Below are positions 1,657-23,107 of a DNA stretch of 26,277 bases, in pieces (positions within the stretch are counted from its first letter, which is position 1; each line of letters opens with the position of its first letter). The notes beneath the pieces were generated by a model. The model was not told the DNA's origin. It saw only the letters and a list, made by a program, of their open reading frames with translations, and ran no database searches. Source of the DNA: a virus; the IMG/VR virus record IMGVR_UViG_3300025147_000037, positions 1 to 26,277 of that record; one strand, written 5' to 3'. Made by a program: the position numbers and the translations under genes.

Positions 1657-2187
1657 TTAAATTCCCGATCCGAACTGAAAATGCATGGGGTCTGGAGTCG
1701 GAAACGTCCCGCCCCAAGTAAATCCAGCATCGGCAAAACACTTTCGAAACGCGTCTGGCATATCGCAGACCATCAGCGACCGCATCGGATTGGTATCGGC
1801 GTTGATGTCGACGGCCGCCGCAACGCTGTGAACACTCAGGCCCTCGCTCCAGCCCACGACATCGCCAGAGCCTTTCGCCACGCGCTTGGGACGCGGGCAG
1901 AACGCGCCGATGGTTCGGATAGTGTACTCGGGGCACGTCGCCTGCCAGGCCGTCAGGGCAGAGCGCAGGGGCACGACCAGAAGACGGTGGACGTAGAGCG
2001 GCTTCGCGAGCCCAGGGAAGTCGCGCACCACGACGCAGTTCTGTGATTCCCAGCGTGGTGGCGATACGATTTGCCAGCCGTCTGGGCCACGTCGGATCTT
2101 GACGTCGCCATAGGCCGCGATGACCTCGGCGAGACCCCGAGGTGGCGGGTAGTCCTGGCTCGGCGCTGGTGGAATTAGGATTGACAT
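1657..2187 (-). CDS. M15-family D-Ala-D-Ala/L-Ala-D-Glu-type peptidase (endolysin)
   Basis: This 176-residue protein cuts peptide cross-links or stem peptides of peptidoglycan to release phage. The zinc site of the M15 (VanY/Peptidase_M15_4) family is readable: S118-V-H120 with D127 six residues on (SVHSVAAAVDIN), then FTWGG at 156-160 and D166-P-M-H169-F near the C-terminus. H120, D127 and H169 are the expected zinc ligands. There is no signal peptide, so it needs a holin or other export route. It lies downstream of a cassette of membrane proteins and a small lipoprotein. The ATG at 2187 has a modest GGTGAT upstream. A strong inverted repeat (2218-2262) sits in its leader and could affect its expression. 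Confidence 0.85.
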   Translation of the reverse strand: MSILIPPAPSQDYPPPRGLAEVIAAYGDVKIRRGPDGWQIVSPPRWESQNCVVVRDFPGLAKPLYVHRLLVVPLRSALTAWQATCPEYTIRTIGAFCPRPKRVAKGSGDVVGWSEGLSVHSVAAAVDINADTNPMRSLMVCDMPDAFRKCFADAGFTWGGTFPTPDPMHFQFGSGI

Positions 2188-2595: not shown

Positions 2596-2852
2596 GGCTG
2601 TTTGATAATCGGATTGGTGGCCGGCTCGTGGTCGAACTTGTCGTGGATCTCAGCCTTCGATGCAGCAAGCACCGCATCCAGTTCCGGCAGCAAGCCAGCG
2701 ACAGTCTCGCCCGTAGTTTTCAGCGCATCGTTGAGCATCTGCAACGCCGTCGCCTCATCCTTGGCGTTGATCGCCTCTTTCGCCGCCATGGCCGCCTGAA
2801 TCGCCGACGCCGAAAACTTGACCACCATTTCTGCGATAGATGCCAAGTCCAT
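2592..2852 (-). CDS. Ala-rich helical protein, 86 aa, unknown function
   Basis: The start ATG overlaps the stop of the upstream gene (TAATG) and is preceded by GGAGG about nine bases upstream, so the frame extending to 2936 is not used. The protein begins MDLASIAEMVVKFSASAIQ and is strongly helical and Ala-rich (KEAINAKDEATALQMLNDALK), ending in a charged tail. There is no strongly hydrophobic TM segment and no signal peptide. It sits between a holin/lipoprotein-like gene and a small lipoprotein gene, so a lysis-related or cytoplasmic accessory role is possible. It matches no family I recognise. Confidence 0.6.
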   Translation of the reverse strand: MDLASIAEMVVKFSASAIQAAMAAKEAINAKDEATALQMLNDALKTTGETVAGLLPELDAVLAASKAEIHDKFDHEPATNPIIKQP

Positions 2853-3529
2853 TAGATGCCTCCAGGAAGTTTGACGCCGAGGGGCGCCAAGACGGGTTGC
2901 AACTTGTAGTAGAGGTCCATGGCCAGCGCCATCCACTGAGCCAGGTCAGCGGGCGTTGCAGAGGCTTTGGCGATGGTCTGGACACGGTCACGACCGTAGA
3001 TCAGCGACTGGTAGGCAGCCTGCAATCCCGACGCGGCAACACGGCAGCGCTTGTCGATGTCGTCGACGGCGGCGGTTGCATCAGCCTCGGTCTTGCTCGA
3101 CTGGATGGCCTGATGTTCGACGCCCTTGCACGCGTCCGGCAGTTCCTTGGCGGCGATGCTGGTCCACGCTGCGGCTGCGGCCATGGTCTGATAGCTGACT
3201 TTCACCGTGGGCGCGCACGCCGACAGCAAGCCCGCGCCGATGAGCAAGAACGGGAGGAGGCGTAGCGAATGGGGCCCCGACGGCGGAGGCGGCAACGGCG
3301 CCGGGTCTTGCGTGGTGGTCACGGTCACGCTGTTGACCACCGCTTTGCCGCCGACGATGGGAACGCCGAGCAGCGCCAACACGTTGAACAACACGGCGTT
3401 GATAATCATAACGGCGACAGCAGCCTTACTGCCGGGGGTGAAAATACTAGCGAGCGACAGCATCGCCAGCGTGTTGAATACGGCGGCCAGAATTAGCGAC
3501 ATCCAAGGCGGGATTTTCAGGGGCTGCAT
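2852..3529 (-). CDS. holin-like two-TM N-terminus joined to an internal lipobox domain
   Basis: The 225-residue product starts at an ATG with AGGAG six bases upstream. Residues about 9-30 and 37-59 are two hydrophobic helices with a short turn, as in small two-TM holins. A Pro-rich linker follows (QDPAPLPPPPSGP). Then residues 88-105 read as a fresh lipoprotein signal (LRLLPFLLIGAGLLSAC) with an LSAC box at 102-105. The rest (about 120 residues) is helical and soluble. The frame is continuous with no stop. Either this is one protein with three membrane segments, or an internal start produces a separate lipoprotein; a TTG before the Pro run could serve but has no ribosome site. Lysis context supports a role in membrane permeabilisation or spanning. 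No named family is recognised. Confidence 0.6.
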   Translation of the reverse strand: MQPLKIPPWMSLILAAVFNTLAMLSLASIFTPGSKAAVAVMIINAVLFNVLALLGVPIVGGKAVVNSVTVTTTQDPAPLPPPPSGPHSLRLLPFLLIGAGLLSACAPTVKVSYQTMAAAAAWTSIAAKELPDACKGVEHQAIQSSKTEADATAAVDDIDKRCRVAASGLQAAYQSLIYGRDRVQTIAKASATPADLAQWMALAMDLYYKLQPVLAPLGVKLPGGI

Positions 3530-4157: not shown

Positions 4158-4357
4158 TTGGCCCTCAAGATCTTGACTTCACCCGGGCCGCCGAAGCCGA
4201 ATTGGTCCAGCGCGCCGAACGCGTGCTTGTGGGCTATGTGGTCGCCGACCACTTGGAAGCGCAATTGTGCGTTGACCATGTCCGCGCGCGCAAGTTGCAG
4301 ATCAAGCGCGTCCTCACGGGACAGCATCTCTGGTGCCGGGCTGATATCAGGTTCCAT
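4154..4357 (-). CDS. hypothetical 67-aa protein between fibre and lysis genes
   Basis: The start ATG overlaps the fibre gene's TAA (TAATG), so a much longer frame reaching 4927 is rejected as a shadow of the fibre gene. The protein begins MEPDISPAPEMLSREDALDL and is mostly helical, ending in a Gly-rich tail (DQFGFGGPGEVKILRAK). No TM segment or signal is present. Its position directly after the distal fibre gene could suit a fibre chaperone, but small size and no family match leave this as a guess. Confidence 0.55.
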   Translation of the reverse strand: MEPDISPAPEMLSREDALDLQLARADMVNAQLRFQVVGDHIAHKHAFGALDQFGFGGPGEVKILRAK

Positions 4358-5559
4358 TATCCAGTCACAATCTGGACCCATGAATAGGTCCCCGCCGCTG
4401 CTTTGAGCGACATGTAAAGTTTGTCGGCGACGCCACCGCCGCCGGCGAGATACTTGAAGCTGCCGACGTTGGCAGCGGTTGCTGTGCCGAGGGCGTTGCT
4501 GCCGAGCTGTAGAGCGCCATTGACAAGCGTTCCGGCGCTGCCAACGCCGTCGATCTCGACTTGATCGTTGGCGTTGTTCCGGATCATGGCGATAAATCCG
4601 TTTGCCGCTGCGTTGAGCCCGTAGCAGAGGTACTGATTGTTGACCATCTTGCGGATGAACGAACCCGGCGCAAAATGCAGCGCACCTTGTCCGCTCTGGC
4701 CGATGCCGCCAGCGTCGTAGATCTGGAACCAAAACGACGCCTGGTCGCGTGGGCCTAACGTGACCACGTCTTGGTACATGAGCGTCGACAGTTGCAGCGA
4801 CGGTGCGTACTGGAAGATCGTCGAGAATGGCCGGTACTGCACCGACGCGGCAGTAGCAAATGCGATGTGCCGTTCCACTTGCCGCACGGTCCCGGACGGC
4901 GCGTAATATTGTTCGTACGCATCCCACGTCGCGGCGTTGACGCCGTCGAAGCTGCCGCCGCCGTTATTGACGTTCCAGCCGCGGAGCATGACGAAGTCTT
5001 TGCGGGCTGAGTCGGCGGGGTTGACTGAGCCGCTTACGAATTCATGCCAAGCCGTGTCACCAGCCGAGGCGGGATCTTGCGGCTGGATGCGCAGATACTC
5101 CAAGATGTTGCCGCCCGTCGACAGAGCGGCAATCTTGACATCGCTTGCGCCTGACTGATTGATCTCTAGCGACGCGGTAGCAGTCAGTGCAGGCAGCACG
5201 GGATTCGTCGCTGTCGACTGCAAGATCCAGCCGTAGCTGGTCTTCAGTTGGCTGACCGTGAATGGTCCGGCGAGGCCCTCGGGGAACGCGCCACGCCAGC
5301 GGGTGCCGTCCGGCATAAGTAGATCCCACAGCGCGGTTGTCGGGTCACATTCGCTTGGCCACGGGCCTACGGTGGTCCATGTGCCGTCACCGGCGATGGT
5401 GATAGGCCGCGTCGGCACCAAGATCTCACGGAGGACGCCGCCGATCTTGACGAAGACCGGCTGGGTTGCAGGGATCAGCCGGATCTGTTGGCCAATCTGC
5501 GGCACAGGTGCGCCGCTGTTGTCAATGGCTAACGCCTTGTCAATAATCGTGCAGCTCAA
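4357..5559 (-). CDS. tail fibre / receptor-binding-type protein
   Basis: The chosen start is TTG at 5559 (MSCTIIDKALAIDNSGAPV), because GGAGGTG stands six to seven bases upstream; the ATG at 5586 has none. The 400-residue product has a small N-terminal beta domain (about 1-110), then a Gly/Ser/Asn-rich beta body (repeated NNGGG- and GSAGTLVNGALQLGSN-like stretches) and a C-terminal region ending YSWVQIVTG. Such low-Cys, beta-rich proteins after the baseplate genes are typically distal fibres that bind the host surface. No specific fold is recognised. It is separated from the other fibre-like gene (6149-7000) by an oppositely oriented lipoprotein gene, an unusual interruption of the tail operon. 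Confidence 0.65.
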   Translation of the reverse strand: MSCTIIDKALAIDNSGAPVPQIGQQIRLIPATQPVFVKIGGVLREILVPTRPITIAGDGTWTTVGPWPSECDPTTALWDLLMPDGTRWRGAFPEGLAGPFTVSQLKTSYGWILQSTATNPVLPALTATASLEINQSGASDVKIAALSTGGNILEYLRIQPQDPASAGDTAWHEFVSGSVNPADSARKDFVMLRGWNVNNGGGSFDGVNAATWDAYEQYYAPSGTVRQVERHIAFATAASVQYRPFSTIFQYAPSLQLSTLMYQDVVTLGPRDQASFWFQIYDAGGIGQSGQGALHFAPGSFIRKMVNNQYLCYGLNAAANGFIAMIRNNANDQVEIDGVGSAGTLVNGALQLGSNALGTATAANVGSFKYLAGGGGVADKLYMSLKAAAGTYSWVQIVTG

Positions 5560-5589
5560 TTGACACCTCCAGAATAAGCGCGCCATAAT
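5560..5589 (+). promoter_or_regulatory. near-consensus sigma70-type promoter for the cargo lipoprotein gene
   Basis: TTGACA at 5560-5565 is a perfect -35 box. CATAAT at 5584-5589 matches the -10 consensus at five of six positions, with an 18-base spacer. The predicted start near 5596 leaves a leader of about eight bases before the ATG at 5604, with AGGTG as ribosome site. The -35 box directly abuts the TTG start codon (5559-5557) of the leftward fibre gene, so this 44-base gap serves both genes. Confidence 0.65.
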
Positions 5590-5603
5590 TGCGTCAGGTG
5601 AAA

Positions 5604-6152
5604 ATGCGCAAACTTCTGATCTTGGTTTTGCTGGGTGGATGTGGGGGCGGCGTGATCGGAGGTGATGCCATGGTCGTCAGCGATCTCGCAATGCCAGTCG
5701 ATGCAGATGCCAGCAATGCGGGCGGTGATATGCCCGGCGATATGGCCTTGAATGATCTGGCCAAAAAGTCGTGCGGCTATTCCTTGTCCGAGCCCTGGGC
5801 GATCAGCGGAGGAAGGATCGTCGGCATGAGCGACGCTGGTAACCCGATCATCAATACTCCGAGCTGCGATGCCGAAGTTACTACCTTCGCTATCTGGGCT
5901 CACGTCCAGCTTGGCAATTACCCGACGGGCGACGAGGTCTACTTGGTGATAGACCGCACGCACAAGGTTGGCGAGACCTTCATGCCGCAGATGGCGGTCA
6001 AGTACCCGTCGAGCCCATGTAGCGACTGGACCGGCGGTCTCACTCTTGACCGCGACGTGCCGTTTTGGAAAGTGAGCGTTAATCTCCAGTGCGCATCTGA
6101 CCCCGCGGTCAAATGGGTCGGCTGGATAGAGGGCAACCAGAACGCGCACTAG
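5604..6152 (+). CDS. surface lipoprotein with Asp-rich linker (moron / lysogenic-conversion candidate)
   Basis: The 182-residue product starts at an ATG with AGGTG four bases upstream. MRKLLILVLLGGC is a clear lipoprotein signal with lipobox L10-G-G-C13, so the mature protein should be lipid-anchored and surface or periplasmic. Residues 21-53 are an Asp/Ala/Pro/Gly linker (SDLAMPVDAD, GDMPGDMALNDLA) of the kind seen in myxobacterial lipoproteins. The remaining 130 residues look beta-rich with four Cys (57, 88, 139, 163), enough for two disulfides. It is the only + strand gene inside the leftward tail operon, has its own promoter, and its last four bases overlap the end of the convergent fibre gene. 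Expression from the prophage is therefore plausible. Function could be superinfection exclusion or a surface change; no family is recognised. Confidence 0.75.
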   Translation: MRKLLILVLLGGCGGGVIGGDAMVVSDLAMPVDADASNAGGDMPGDMALNDLAKKSCGYSLSEPWAISGGRIVGMSDAGNPIINTPSCDAEVTTFAIWAHVQLGNYPTGDEVYLVIDRTHKVGETFMPQMAVKYPSSPCSDWTGGLTLDRDVPFWKVSVNLQCASDPAVKWVGWIEGNQNAH

Positions 6153-7000
6153 AATTTAGTCCAGCGCGCGGCGATTGGACCAAAGGCGATACTTGTAAGT
6201 AGCGTGCCCCCAGCTTTTGTTTGGACAAGCGGATTGATGCTGACTCCAGCTGCTGGCATGTTTGCCGTGTCCGTCAACACCAGCGCGTCGTTTATGTAGT
6301 AACGAACCGAAGCTAGGTTCTTATCCATCGAGATTTTGAACCGACTAAATGCGCTGCCAATGGCAATGGCAACGCCGCTGTCAGTCCATACACCACCATT
6401 GCCGGCAAACCAGTTGCCGCTAGCGTTCGTAGCGTGAAACGAACAGGAGTTCGCTCCGAATGCGGTGTTTGTCGAAATCCCGAAAGTCCAATCGCGCTGA
6501 GTCCCGGTCTGGCGAAGCGGGGCGACATCAAACTCAATAAAGAACTGGCCCGTTGCCCACGTCAGAGCAATCGGATACATGGTTGAAAGCGTTTGGATAT
6601 GAGTCGCGTTATTAGATGTACCCTGATCAAGGGTCACCGATCTTGACGTCGCGGTAACTGCACCAAACACCGGGCCGGGGTCATTGATCCCTAGCGTCTG
6701 TGTAGCATCGGCAACGGCAAGCGTGTAAAACCAAATCTTATTGCTGAGGTCGGTAAGCGGGGAAGTGGATACCGAATATGATGCCGCGGCAGTTCTCCAT
6801 TCCTCGCGAAATTCAGAATAGTGGTTCGGACTGATCAGGTACGACAGGTAATCAGCCTGCGCTTTGACCATCTGCGCAACCGACGAAGCAGCAAGCGCAT
6901 CGCCGTCGGCAGGAAGAGTAATTACTGGACCAACGCCAGCCCCAGGGGCCAGAGCTGGAGCCTGTACACCGATATAGCTAGGAGTGTAGTTGCTACTCAC
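6149..7000 (-). CDS. tail fibre-like protein with lectin-like (LamG/ConA-type) C-terminal domain
   Basis: The start is GTG at 7000 with AGGTG six bases upstream. The N-terminal 75 residues (SSNYTPSYIGVQAPALAPGAG...) include a short helix likely to attach to the baseplate. From about residue 80 the sequence is a jelly-roll-like beta domain: a strand set around QFFIEFDVAPL, RDWTFGIST, NWFAGNGGVWTDSG, then SRFKISMDKNLASVRYYIND and a last strand. This resembles concanavalin/LamG glucanase-like folds used for sugar binding. It follows the gpI-type tail protein gene, the normal place for a receptor-binding protein. Its 3' end overlaps the convergent lipoprotein gene by four bases. Lectin fold is inferred by pattern only. 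Confidence 0.65.
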   Translation of the reverse strand: MSSNYTPSYIGVQAPALAPGAGVGPVITLPADGDALAASSVAQMVKAQADYLSYLISPNHYSEFREEWRTAAASYSVSTSPLTDLSNKIWFYTLAVADATQTLGINDPGPVFGAVTATSRSVTLDQGTSNNATHIQTLSTMYPIALTWATGQFFIEFDVAPLRQTGTQRDWTFGISTNTAFGANSCSFHATNASGNWFAGNGGVWTDSGVAIAIGSAFSRFKISMDKNLASVRYYINDALVLTDTANMPAAGVSINPLVQTKAGGTLLTSIAFGPIAARWTKF

Positions 7001-7009
7001 AATTGCACC

Positions 7010-7831
7010 TCATGGTGTAAACACCGTCGACGTTCCGCCCCAGTTGCCCGTACCGGCGCCCCAGACTTGCGATTCGGGAATGCCCCACTCTTTGCCGGCG
7101 AGACCGACATAGATGCCCATGCACGTCGCCTCGGCATTTCGCCATTGCTGAATGATCGCGCGAATGAGACCAACCTCCGACAGCGTGGGGGCGCTGGTCA
7201 CCGTCGGCGGATTGACGATGGATGTCCATGACGCGGGCAGATTCGCGGTCGTAATCACGACGGCAAACCGGCTACAAAAGTCGGTCTTGTCGTCGAACTT
7301 CCACCACGGATTCCCGGCCGGTATCGTTTTCGTATACGGCGCAACCGGCGTTGCTGGTGCGGTCAATGACGCCGCATTGGTGATAACCAGGCTGGTCGTC
7401 GGGTCGGCATTCGGCGGTGTGGTCAACCGAAACACCAGCCCGTTCTGCTGCACGATGGCAACGCCGGTGTAGCCAAGCGAGTAGTAGAGGTTCAGCAAGA
7501 TCGCGAGCGGCGTACCAGCATATGGCCACGACTTGTCCCATGCCTGTTTAAGCCGCGTAGCAAATGCCGTGTTGGTCTCAGCGGTGCCTGCGACAGCGCC
7601 ACCCTGGACAAGCCCCCGCTCGCTTCCAATGTGCGCCAGCGCGTCCACAGGGGCCTTGTCGGGGAAGCGCGCCTCGACGGCATCCTTGAGCCGGTCCACC
7701 TGCACATCGGCAAGCTGCGGCCATGCGCCGGCATCGGCCACGCTGTCGCTTGTGCCCGAGACGAGCCATGAGATCGGCAGCGACTGCATCCACTGCACGA
7801 ACGTGGTCGACTGTAGAATTGGCTGTGGCAT
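7010..7831 (-). CDS. baseplate wedge / tail protein at the P2 gpI - Mu gp48 position
   Basis: This 273-residue protein starts at an ATG overlapping the stop of the gpJ-like gene (TAATG). In P2- and Mu-like phages the gene after gpJ encodes the tail protein I/gp48 that closes the wedge and holds the fibres, and this gene occupies that slot. The N-terminal part is helical (VDRLKDAVEARFPDKAPVDALAHIGSERGL), the middle has a WPYAGTPLAILLNLYYSLGY stretch of the kind seen in gpI-like proteins, and the C-terminal 120 residues are beta-rich and may be an insertion. Identification rests on order more than on motifs. Confidence 0.65.
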   Translation of the reverse strand: MPQPILQSTTFVQWMQSLPISWLVSGTSDSVADAGAWPQLADVQVDRLKDAVEARFPDKAPVDALAHIGSERGLVQGGAVAGTAETNTAFATRLKQAWDKSWPYAGTPLAILLNLYYSLGYTGVAIVQQNGLVFRLTTPPNADPTTSLVITNAASLTAPATPVAPYTKTIPAGNPWWKFDDKTDFCSRFAVVITTANLPASWTSIVNPPTVTSAPTLSEVGLIRAIIQQWRNAEATCMGIYVGLAGKEWGIPESQVWGAGTGNWGGTSTVFTP

Positions 7832-9258
7832 TATCCGGCCACCGTCGCGTAGGTGAAGGTCAGCGCGTTGAGGAGCCCAAGCACGTATGTCGTCGTGCTA
7901 CCCAGCGTGAGGTTTGCAGCAACCGCATTGATGGTCACACCCGACACGTCGACCACGCCGGACTGCAACATGATCTGCTCAATGATGGCCGACAGCCGAT
8001 ACGTGCCATTGATGGCGACCGAGTTGCTATAGGCGGTCATGGCCGTTTGAACTAGGTTCTGGACGTTCGCCAGCTGCGACACGTAGCAGGTGATGGTGCC
8101 GGCCAGCGTGATACCCAGGGTCGTCGGTGACATGACAACGGGAAATACGGTCGTCGGGGTACGCGCCGCAACGTAGGCCTGAATCGTCGAGATGGTGCCG
8201 ACGGGCAACACGCCAGCCGCGCCGGCAACTACGATCAAGAGTTTGTTGTTGATATTGGCGTCCGGCTGCACGATGACCTGCGTCACCTGCGATCCGACGG
8301 TGGGCGTCGACGTGGCGAGGAGCTGATAGAGCTGCGTCACGCCGACATTGGCCAGCGTTGCCCAGCGTGCTTTGCAGCGAGTCGCAAGCGCAAGGTCTGC
8401 TTCAAGGTCGCTACCCTGACTTGTGATCCAGCTACCCGGTGACGAGGCCGTGAGCGTATCGCCAACAATGAATGATGGGGTGCCAGCGCCGTTGACGAGC
8501 GTGACGTTGATCCCAACGCCGCCGATGTTCGTCAGGCTTGCAACGGCGCCGGCCGAGATATACGCCGCGCCATCGAGCGAGTAGGACCACGAGGCCACGC
8601 CGCTCTGGCCGCTGGAGTCGATTCGCACGACGATCTGATGCGCGCCGATTGGTGATCCGCCGATGCCGATAGTCCCCGTGCCGGAGCCGGTCTGCACGAC
8701 GGTGCTGTATGCAAAGGCGACGTTGCCGACCGTCACGCCGGGAATCGAAGTGGTCAGCAGAATGCCGGTGACGTTGCTCGGATCGTTGTACGCGCTGCCG
8801 GGATTCTCGGCGACGAACGAGCCGGACACCGAGCCGGGGCCGACCGGGATCACGATGGTGCCTTGATTCAAGTAGCTGCGCCCCGATGCAGGGAACGTGA
8901 TCTTGAGCTGGCCGGCCTGATACGTCTGCGTCGCGACACCAGCCGCTGCGGTAAGCGTGATTGTGCCGACGGTGAACGATGCCGCGTTCTGCGTGAGGTT
9001 GTACACCTGCGCCGCAAGCAATGACATCCAACCCGTACCCGGCGCATAGTCAACAAAGCCACCCGCCGTGATGCTCGGCATGTATGACGCGATGGTGTTT
9101 TGCATCACCGTCGCAAATGCAAACAGGCGCGTCCGCTCGACACCACCGGCCTGCCACGAGGTGACCGGAAAGCCGGCCGCCGTGTAGTAGCCGAGCAGCG
9201 ACGTGTAGAGCTGCAGAACGGTCTGCGACGGCAACAGCGATGCGAGGGTAGCGGCCAT
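7831..9258 (-). CDS. baseplate J-like protein with an inserted beta domain
   Basis: The 475-residue product is the wedge protein that forms the outer ring of contractile baseplates. The gpJ signature is seen around residues 115-165: a conserved strand block followed by FVAENPGSAYNDPSN, the equivalent of the 'AxxxGxxxN' turn. An inserted domain of about 75 residues (200-275; IVVRIDSSGQSGVASWSYSL, then IVGDTLT) matches a domain found twice in the sheath protein. After it comes a helical DLEADLALATRCKARWATL segment and a C-terminal mixed domain (VFPVVMSPTTLGITLAGTI). The ATG overlaps the preceding TGA (TGATG), and the gene lies between the gp25-like and gpI-like genes as in P2. Confidence 0.8.
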   Translation of the reverse strand: MAATLASLLPSQTVLQLYTSLLGYYTAAGFPVTSWQAGGVERTRLFAFATVMQNTIASYMPSITAGGFVDYAPGTGWMSLLAAQVYNLTQNAASFTVGTITLTAAAGVATQTYQAGQLKITFPASGRSYLNQGTIVIPVGPGSVSGSFVAENPGSAYNDPSNVTGILLTTSIPGVTVGNVAFAYSTVVQTGSGTGTIGIGGSPIGAHQIVVRIDSSGQSGVASWSYSLDGAAYISAGAVASLTNIGGVGINVTLVNGAGTPSFIVGDTLTASSPGSWITSQGSDLEADLALATRCKARWATLANVGVTQLYQLLATSTPTVGSQVTQVIVQPDANINNKLLIVVAGAAGVLPVGTISTIQAYVAARTPTTVFPVVMSPTTLGITLAGTITCYVSQLANVQNLVQTAMTAYSNSVAINGTYRLSAIIEQIMLQSGVVDVSGVTINAVAANLTLGSTTTYVLGLLNALTFTYATVAG

Positions 9259-21691: not shown

Positions 21692-23107
21692 TTAGATACG
21701 TCGAGCGGCGGAGACTCCTGCGATAGGATCGAATCGGGCAGCGGCAGGTGTGAGCATCAATTCAGCAAGCGCGAATACGAGGGCGTCGGCACGGTTGGGG
21801 CTTTCACCCTCGACGCCGGCAGAGGTGAAACGGCACATTTCATCCTCAAGATCGGAAAGGCACCCCTTGTGCACACGTGGAATAGCCCGCGTGTCGCATT
21901 TACAGGCGCCAACGTGATGCACGCGGTGCTGCTCATACAGCGCGGACACAGGCTCGGCGCGTACAACCTTGCCGCGGCTCGAGACCACTGGAGCCATCGC
22001 CACGCGCACGCCCAAGTCTTTGGCCGCCTGTTGGATAGTGGCCGCGACCATGGCGCCGCCGTAGTTGACCTCGTAGACAATACGGTCGGCCTTCAGCTCC
22101 TGATACAACTCGACGGCAGCCTTACCCCAGCCGGCCGGCGTGAGCTTGCACGTGCGGTCGGCCAACACGTAGCCATGACCATCGAAGCGACCCTTTCCGC
22201 AAGCCACGATGCCCTGGGCGTCATTGCCCTGGCCGTCGCCGCCCGACGGGTCTACGGCTATCACAATGCGGGACATGGCAGGTGCTACAGCAATGCGGTC
22301 GGCATCAATGCCGCCTTGTGTCCAGAGCGCGCCGGGGAAGTCGTCCAAAACCTCGGCATACAGCTCCTGCCGGCCTAGGCGCGTGCCCTCGTACTGGCGC
22401 TTGACCGCGTCGATAAACGCAGGGCTAAGGTTTTGCGCATTGTCGAACGTCGAGCCACGGGTAATGACCGATGTCGGATCAGCTATCAGCCGGCGTATTA
22501 GCGGTATCGCACGCGGCGTGGTGGATACGACGCATTGAGGCAGGTCACCCAAGCGCAGGGTCATCTGCAACATGTCCCAACATTCCTCAGCGTAGGCCCA
22601 TGCGGCGACCTCATCGGCGGATGCCCAATGATGGTTAGGACCACGTAGGCGGTCAGGCTCCTCAGCGCTGTATGTCGTGGCGGTTGAGCCGTATTCAGGC
22701 CAGCAGAGCGAGCGCTTGCTGGATTCGTAGATGCACCCAGGCGACCCGTCACGAAGCGGTGGCGTGCATGCCAAGATGGCCTTGACCATCACGTCACGGA
22801 CATCGCCTGCCGTCGAGCCAATGACCGCACCGTGCGAGCCGGGCATGGTCCGCGCCTTCATGCGCACCCACTCGGCGGCAGTGCGAGACTTGCCGAAACC
22901 ACGACCAGCCAACAGCAACCACGTTGACCATGTACCAGCCGGTGGCAATTGCTCTGGCCGTGCCCATGCCGGCCACTCATAGCGCAGCCGGTCTAGCGCC
23001 TCGTCTCCGAGAGCCGCCATCACCGCGTCGACGCCAAAGCGTTTGACCGCCTGCTCTATGAGGGATGCGGCCACGTTAGGGGATGAGGCCAGGCGGGACG
23101 ATGACAA
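21692..23107 (-). CDS. large terminase subunit (GTA/COG5323-type)
   Basis: This ATP-driven packaging motor and nuclease has 471 residues. The ATPase shows WLLLAGRGFGKSRTAAEW (Walker A, K73/S74), the Walker B with D165-E166 (WASADEVAAWAYAEECWDML) and the coupling motif STTPR near 195-199. The nuclease has IVIAVDPSGGDGQ (D286), YEVNYGGAMVAA (E346) and NRADALVFAL (D441). The GRGFGKxRTxAEW block and the EVNxGG motif are those of the gene-transfer-agent-like terminases rather than Mu gp28. The start is unsure: TTG at 23107 has a ribosome site placed too close, while GTG at 23074 follows the previous stop by one base. Confidence 0.9.
   Translation of the reverse strand: MSSSRLASSPNVAASLIEQAVKRFGVDAVMAALGDEALDRLRYEWPAWARPEQLPPAGTWSTWLLLAGRGFGKSRTAAEWVRMKARTMPGSHGAVIGSTAGDVRDVMVKAILACTPPLRDGSPGCIYESSKRSLCWPEYGSTATTYSAEEPDRLRGPNHHWASADEVAAWAYAEECWDMLQMTLRLGDLPQCVVSTTPRAIPLIRRLIADPTSVITRGSTFDNAQNLSPAFIDAVKRQYEGTRLGRQELYAEVLDDFPGALWTQGGIDADRIAVAPAMSRIVIAVDPSGGDGQGNDAQGIVACGKGRFDGHGYVLADRTCKLTPAGWGKAAVELYQELKADRIVYEVNYGGAMVAATIQQAAKDLGVRVAMAPVVSSRGKVVRAEPVSALYEQHRVHHVGACKCDTRAIPRVHKGCLSDLEDEMCRFTSAGVEGESPNRADALVFALAELMLTPAAARFDPIAGVSAARRI

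Follow-up and report, generated by a model that had tools for sequence, protein, structure and literature searches.

A reversed lipoprotein gene beside the fibre genes of a Mu-like phage suggests an exchangeable shield against superinfection

Directly after the fibre gene FIB1, a group of related phages keeps a slot that is filled by reversed, usually unrelated lipoprotein genes, so that position and orientation are conserved and the content changes. This suggests that the slot lipoprotein is a swappable shield against further phages infecting the same cell. We put at roughly one half the probability that the protein is a lipoprotein of the envelope, expressed on its own and paired with the fibre module, which keeps further phages from adsorbing or entering; among the functions weighed here, superinfection blocking has the best support, by analogy with the Llp proteins of T5 and BF23. 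The DNA analysed, here called the window, is the whole stretch of 26,277 nt from position 1 to 26,277 of IMG/VR virus record IMGVR_UViG_3300025147_000037 (Table 1).

Table 1. Features of the window and occupants of the slot after FIB1 in related phages (positions are those of the window unless a record is named).
Feature	Position	Strand	Remarks
Endolysin	1657-2187		window lysis region
FIB2, fibre-like gene	4357-5559	-	divergent from the lipoprotein gene; TTG start 5557-5559; Shine-Dalgarno GGAGGTG
Second promoter-like site, TTGTCA-17-AATAAT	5519-5547	+	10/12; within the FIB2 coding region
Promoter-like site, TTGACA-18-CATAAT	5560-5589	+	11/12; -35 at 5560-5565, -10 at 5584-5589
Shine-Dalgarno-like AGGTGA	5596-5601	+	short spacing before ATG 5604
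Lipoprotein CDS, 182 aa	5604-6152	+	ATG start; TAG stop 6150-6152; homologue in the G016 slot
Predicted signal peptide MRKLLILVLLGG with lipobox LGGC (residues 10-13)	5604-5642	+	from translation
Asp/Ala/Gly/Met-rich linker	5643-5768	+	from translation; DMGGDMAG linker alike in the G016 homologue
Mature domain	5769-6149	+	Cys57, Cys88, Cys139, Cys163
CTAG, convergent stop overlap of lipoprotein gene and FIB1	6149-6152
FIB1, fibre gene	6149-7000	-	N-terminal segment conserved (SNYT...PxDGDA..ASVAQ), C-terminus variable
gp48-like baseplate-to-fibre gene	7010-7831	-	Mx4 counterpart carries the change cluster of a host-range derivative
Baseplate J-like protein (PF04865)	7831-9258	-	anchor for the synteny comparison
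G015 slot lipoprotein, 132 aa		reversed	immediately after FIB1
G016 slot lipoproteins, 184 and 124 aa		reversed	tandem, after FIB1
G017 slot lipoprotein, 75 aa		reversed	after FIB1
G021 slot lipoprotein, long, Cys-rich		reversed	frame continues into FIB1, end uncertain
G023 slot lipoprotein, 199 aa		reversed	after FIB1
G029 slot, Cys-rich frame		reversed	5'-cut, after FIB1
Mx4 slot lipoprotein, 134 aa	OK085710 40560-40964 (L033:15291-15695); OR576728 40561-40965	reversed	after FIB1; lipobox; WNM70406.1, hypothetical

The late genes of the window run leftward and include those for terminase, Mu-type portal, protease, gpT capsid protein, DUF2586 sheath and baseplate J. Metagenomic contigs are the relatives that match the window best, and no bacterial prophage relative was found by sheath alignment. 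The annotated phages that best match its baseplate J are Myxococcus phage Mx4, which has been classed as Mu-like (PMC8530038), and Thermus/Meiothermus phages. From Mx4 and from the Asp/Ala/Met-rich linkers of the lipoproteins we infer that the host likely belongs to the Myxococcota. One relative, G016 (IMGVR_UViG_3300031507_000021), is classed as linear but appears to be a complete genome of 39.2 kb with circular permutation, because its two contig ends can be joined into a single gp48 frame, after which FIB1 starts; this apparent circular closure, together with the tyrosine integrase gene that G016 carries, indicates that the clade of the window can be temperate.

The preliminary description had recognised a + strand gene inside the leftward operon, and this arrangement stands: an ORF from 5604 (or from an alternative upstream TTG at 5589) to 6152 lies between the leftward frames 4357-5559 and 6149-7000. 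We regard this lipoprotein gene as real. With the late genes of the window as training set for a codon model, its frame scores 0.24 per codon and the opposite strand -0.10 to -0.07, other minus-strand genes of the window scoring mostly 0.1-0.5. Another reading is that the + strand gene is not real and that the operon gene is a 197-aa ORF on the - strand (5556-6149), completely antisense to it, which exactly fills the gap and joins both neighbours via TAGTG and TTGA overlaps in the style of a coupled operon. This ORF, however, has a codon score of -0.10 against +0.24, a GC3 of 0.56 against 0.72 for the lipoprotein frame, and no Shine-Dalgarno sequence ahead of its GTG, whereas the + strand encodes a signal peptide and a lipobox and its product has a homologue in the G016 slot. 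As the coding frame the antisense ORF is strongly disfavoured, and we give this reading next to no chance.

The translation bears the LGGC lipobox that had been read from it, with Cys13 as the predicted lipidated residue, and four further cysteines, the number first counted. Both the +2 and the +7 residue of Cys13 are Gly; the outer-membrane sorting rule for myxobacteria asks for no Lys at +2 and no Ala at +7 (quoted in PMC5562445), and the lipoprotein most likely goes to the outer membrane. Its mature domain is probably beta-rich with two disulfides. The 184-aa lipoprotein in the G016 slot is recognisably homologous: BLASTP gave E = 8e-5 over most of the length (one pairwise comparison, to which the linker contributes), all four mature cysteines are matched, and the score of the mature parts by themselves is 53, with shuffles at 28 +/- 5; of 2000 shuffles in which the cysteines were kept fixed, 3 attained it. 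No other pair of slot proteins showed a recognisable relation. The window protein had no match in Pfam, NCBIfam or PADLOC, tblastn with E allowed up to 10 retrieved no phage record, no solved structure resembled the protein, and its one PHROG match (E = 0.01) was to a family of unknown function. Searches for homologues in viral contigs, genome contigs, phages and plasmids returned chance matches only, the pattern search being one that reaches close relatives only, and the AlphaFold2 model (pLDDT 37.6) was unusable.

Upstream, the promoter that had been proposed (TTGACA, an 18-nt spacer, CATAAT) proved to be the best of 10 promoter-like sites in the window, in which 0.05 sites of this quality are expected, and its -35 box directly adjoins the start codon of the divergent FIB2, as first noticed. 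A transcript starting about 7 nt past CATAAT would begin near 5596, on the Shine-Dalgarno-like motif, and have a leader of <10 nt; the second promoter-like site, 41 bp further upstream, would give a leader of about 50 nt. Independent transcription of the lipoprotein gene is thus supported by sequence. A + strand terminator was not found by a sequence search at the locus, and the inverted repeat 6155-6163/6176-6184, already described as weak and without a T-run, is just that. A hairpin at the stop overlap is unusual on the fibre strand of the window only (z -2.9), not in the relatives. Within the gene, the in-frame ATG 5670 follows a perfect GGAGGTG (GGAGGTG-ATGCC-ATG, 5658-5672, +) and was the start picked by our gene caller; initiation there could yield a 160-aa unexported form without signal peptide. 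Upstream of the unrelated slot lipoproteins of G016 and G017 lies a 17-bp palindrome, TGCGRCAATTTGWCGCA (G016:36514-36530, G017:16187-16203), possibly an operator in these two slots; it is missing from the window, and the second-best match in G016 resembles coding sequence.

Related contigs were read around their baseplate J gene with a purpose-written simple gene caller. The gene order J, gp48-like, FIB1 recurs, and the slot after FIB1 holds a reversed lipoprotein gene in 8 of the 17 readable phages (the window included), four of the five closest phages among them. It is empty in the other nine (G001, G002, G020, G024, G025, G026, G027 with G028 the same, L116 and L068). Several slot proteins are Cys-rich, STIG1-like ones among them, and the stop codons of FIB1 and of the lipoprotein gene overlap by four bases in the window, G015 (CTAA), G016 (CTAG) and G017 (TTAG). 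Across the late modules of J-bearing relatives, a lipobox was found in 6 of 25 anti-operon genes and in 2 of 478 sense genes (Fisher p = 2e-7, a guide and not a strict probability, the contigs being related); by chance it occurs in 14 of 1422 non-coding shadow ORFs. The anti-operon count is conservative, because it lacks the genes of G016, G017, G021 and G023 and also counts several anti genes that were miscalled in G022. Reversed lipoprotein genes also occur elsewhere in the tail module (G020:25039-25479, G024:about 22020-22451 and L117:5967-6551), either between an h9653-like gene and W or between h10840-like and h9653-like genes; together with the empty slots they indicate that pairing with FIB1 is not strict.

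The gene had been called a moron. Its absence from G001, which has FIB1 with no reversed gene after it, agrees with that name and with the expectation that some relatives with fibre genes would lack it; the idea of a sporadic insert holds only in part, since a reversed lipoprotein gene recurs in nearly half of the slots. The close coupling of the gene to its fibre neighbours could also mean that the protein is a virion part or an assembly partner of FIB1 or FIB2. Against this stand its export signal and lipobox and the opposite direction of transcription, and we consider such a role very improbable. The universal conservation expected of an essential tail component is likewise not seen: the slot lipoprotein is absent in G001 and others, by which a conserved tail part is ruled out.

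Either FIB1 or FIB2 would be the receptor binder. The C-terminus of FIB1 is weakly concanavalin-A-like, with only weak fold matches; its AlphaFold2 model was too poor (pLDDT 38.8), and Foldseek returned SPRY, beta-glucanase and galectin-like folds, all at E above 0.02, so that the lectin-like nature of the tip is no more than hinted at. In the phages with a filled slot the FIB1 C-terminus is lectin-like, unlike the Gly-rich one of G001 (L032:4427-5500), a close relative without slot lipoprotein (one case only).

Phage Mx4 offers a further view of the neighbourhood. Its reversed CDS shares with the window the slot after the fibre gene, the orientation and the lipobox, and is unrelated in sequence to the window lipoprotein. 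The second, later annotation (OR576728) calls this CDS independently at the slot coordinates; in OK085710 (2021), two small + strand genes, p68 and p69, are called over it. Comparison of OK085710 (gp48-like gene at 38372-39718) with OR576728 places 5 of the 21 genome-wide differences of an Mx4 host-range derivative (PMC10720576) in the gp48-like gene (V139M, S257 ambiguous, G282W, G318R and T430A; chance about 2e-4), which lies two genes from the lipoprotein gene and holds most of the changes in this part of the genome. The gp48-like gene is a candidate for the site of the known hrm-1 lesion, and the cluster makes it plausible that the slot neighbourhood is host-recognition machinery, although the changes may be passengers of mutagenesis.

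The closest parallel comes from phages T5 and BF23. In T5, the lipoprotein gene (+, 110429-110662) lies 80 bp from the receptor-binding gene oad (-, 108427-110349), with promoters both ways, and its product Llp attaches to FhuA on the periplasmic side and makes the outer loops fold, which prevents the receptor-binding protein from binding (PMC9586334). In BF23, the llp gene adjoining the gene for the receptor-binding protein is not homologous to T5 llp and encodes a protein that blocks BF23's own receptor (PMC4728585). As in the window, these lipoprotein genes lie on the opposite strand beside a receptor-binding or fibre gene with their own promoters (promoter-like sites in the window), different phages carry non-homologous versions, and the products are disulfide-bonded, as would be the mature domain of the window protein. 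The Cor proteins of T1, phi80 and related phages are likewise small, disulfide-bonded superinfection-exclusion lipoproteins (PMC9586334). Unlike these, the window protein matches neither family; it has 182 aa against the 77 codons of the T5 gene, an Asp-rich linker and four mature cysteines, and several slot proteins are rich in Cys, which the small Llp and Cor proteins are not. The phage itself also differs from T5 in being Mu-like with a contractile tail and in having the gene between two fibre genes. Because the slot shows the traits of T5 and BF23 (adjacency to host recognition, reversed independent expression, unrelated content), blocking of receptor or entry is ranked first among the functions.

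Under this superinfection-blocking function, the lipoprotein would be made from its own promoter, against and independently of the late operon, so that it could be produced while the tail genes are silent, presumably early in infection or in the lysogen. In a slot reserved for them next to the fibre genes, lipoproteins would be swapped, or diverge fast, together with the host-recognition module. At the outer membrane, the protein would bind or mask the structure recognised by the phage's own fibre and thereby block adsorption or entry of further phages, as T5 Llp does; masking might also spare progeny from sticking to debris.

Ranked second is the view that the protein is cargo for lysogenic conversion in general, a lipoprotein of the outer membrane altering fitness or surface of the host with no link to the phage's own receptor. 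The wide variation of slot content between phages, with its STIG1-like proteins, the three phages that have reversed lipoprotein genes at other sites of the tail module, and the lipoprotein cargo known from myxobacterial prophage elements (PMC5562445) all fit. But the recurrent position adjoins the fibre genes and not the operon ends, and neither the recurrent slot nor the four-base stop overlap would be explained, which leaves general cargo unlikely, if a serious contender. Another candidate is a SitA-type kin-discrimination toxin, delivered between myxobacteria via outer-membrane exchange, as SitA proteins are likewise lipoproteins on prophage-like elements (Mx-alpha of Myxococcus xanthus; PMC5562445) and highly polymorphic (PMC8546572). 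SitA genes, however, come as sitB-sitA-sitI, whereas the window gene lies in a tail module without sitB or sitI neighbours, its stop overlaps FIB1 and no + strand immunity gene follows; no toxin domain was found by family searches, and the mature part has only about 127 aa. A SitA identity fails on the features tested (immunity gene and toxin domain are both missing), and we hold it to be very improbable.

Phage lipoproteins are often outer-membrane spanins, so a lysis role was also considered. The lysis region, however, lies elsewhere, around the endolysin, with a sense-strand lipoprotein of its own, and no inner-membrane partner adjoins the slot gene; we give a spanin role scarcely any probability. 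That other lipoprotein is encoded at 2852-3529 (-), an apparent fusion of a membrane (holin-like) segment and a lipoprotein (SLRLLPFLLIGAGLLSAC...). Its lipoprotein half (about 2852-3294, sense strand) is conserved in G001 as a separate gene (L032:8072-8449), which makes it probably the lysis lipoprotein.

Returning to superinfection blocking, a bolder version would be that Mu-like phages of Myxococcota keep the reversed slot to exchange unrelated outer-membrane lipoproteins and that the exclusion is transferable to neighbouring cells. Since outer-membrane exchange lets myxobacteria hand lipoproteins of the outer membrane from cell to cell, protection of neighbours as well as of the infected cell is conceivable, and we treat it as a long shot. 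What had looked like an odd single gene becomes a testable rule, that of a fibre-side slot in Mu-like phages with reversed lipoprotein genes of changing content, and, if superinfection blocking is true, the pairing of a receptor-binding gene with a blocking lipoprotein known from T5 and BF23 would extend to a distant phage group. Because Mx4, a laboratory phage, carries a slot lipoprotein gene, the function is testable in the tractable M. xanthus, for which little seems to be established about the receptors of its phages or about superinfection exclusion (the word 'receptor' does not occur in the review PMC6070905). Apart from its two slot lipoproteins, G016 encodes one of 354 aa on the sense strand (33070-34134, -); it lies where the late operon ends, contains DMATPP repeats and is possibly a further cargo protein.
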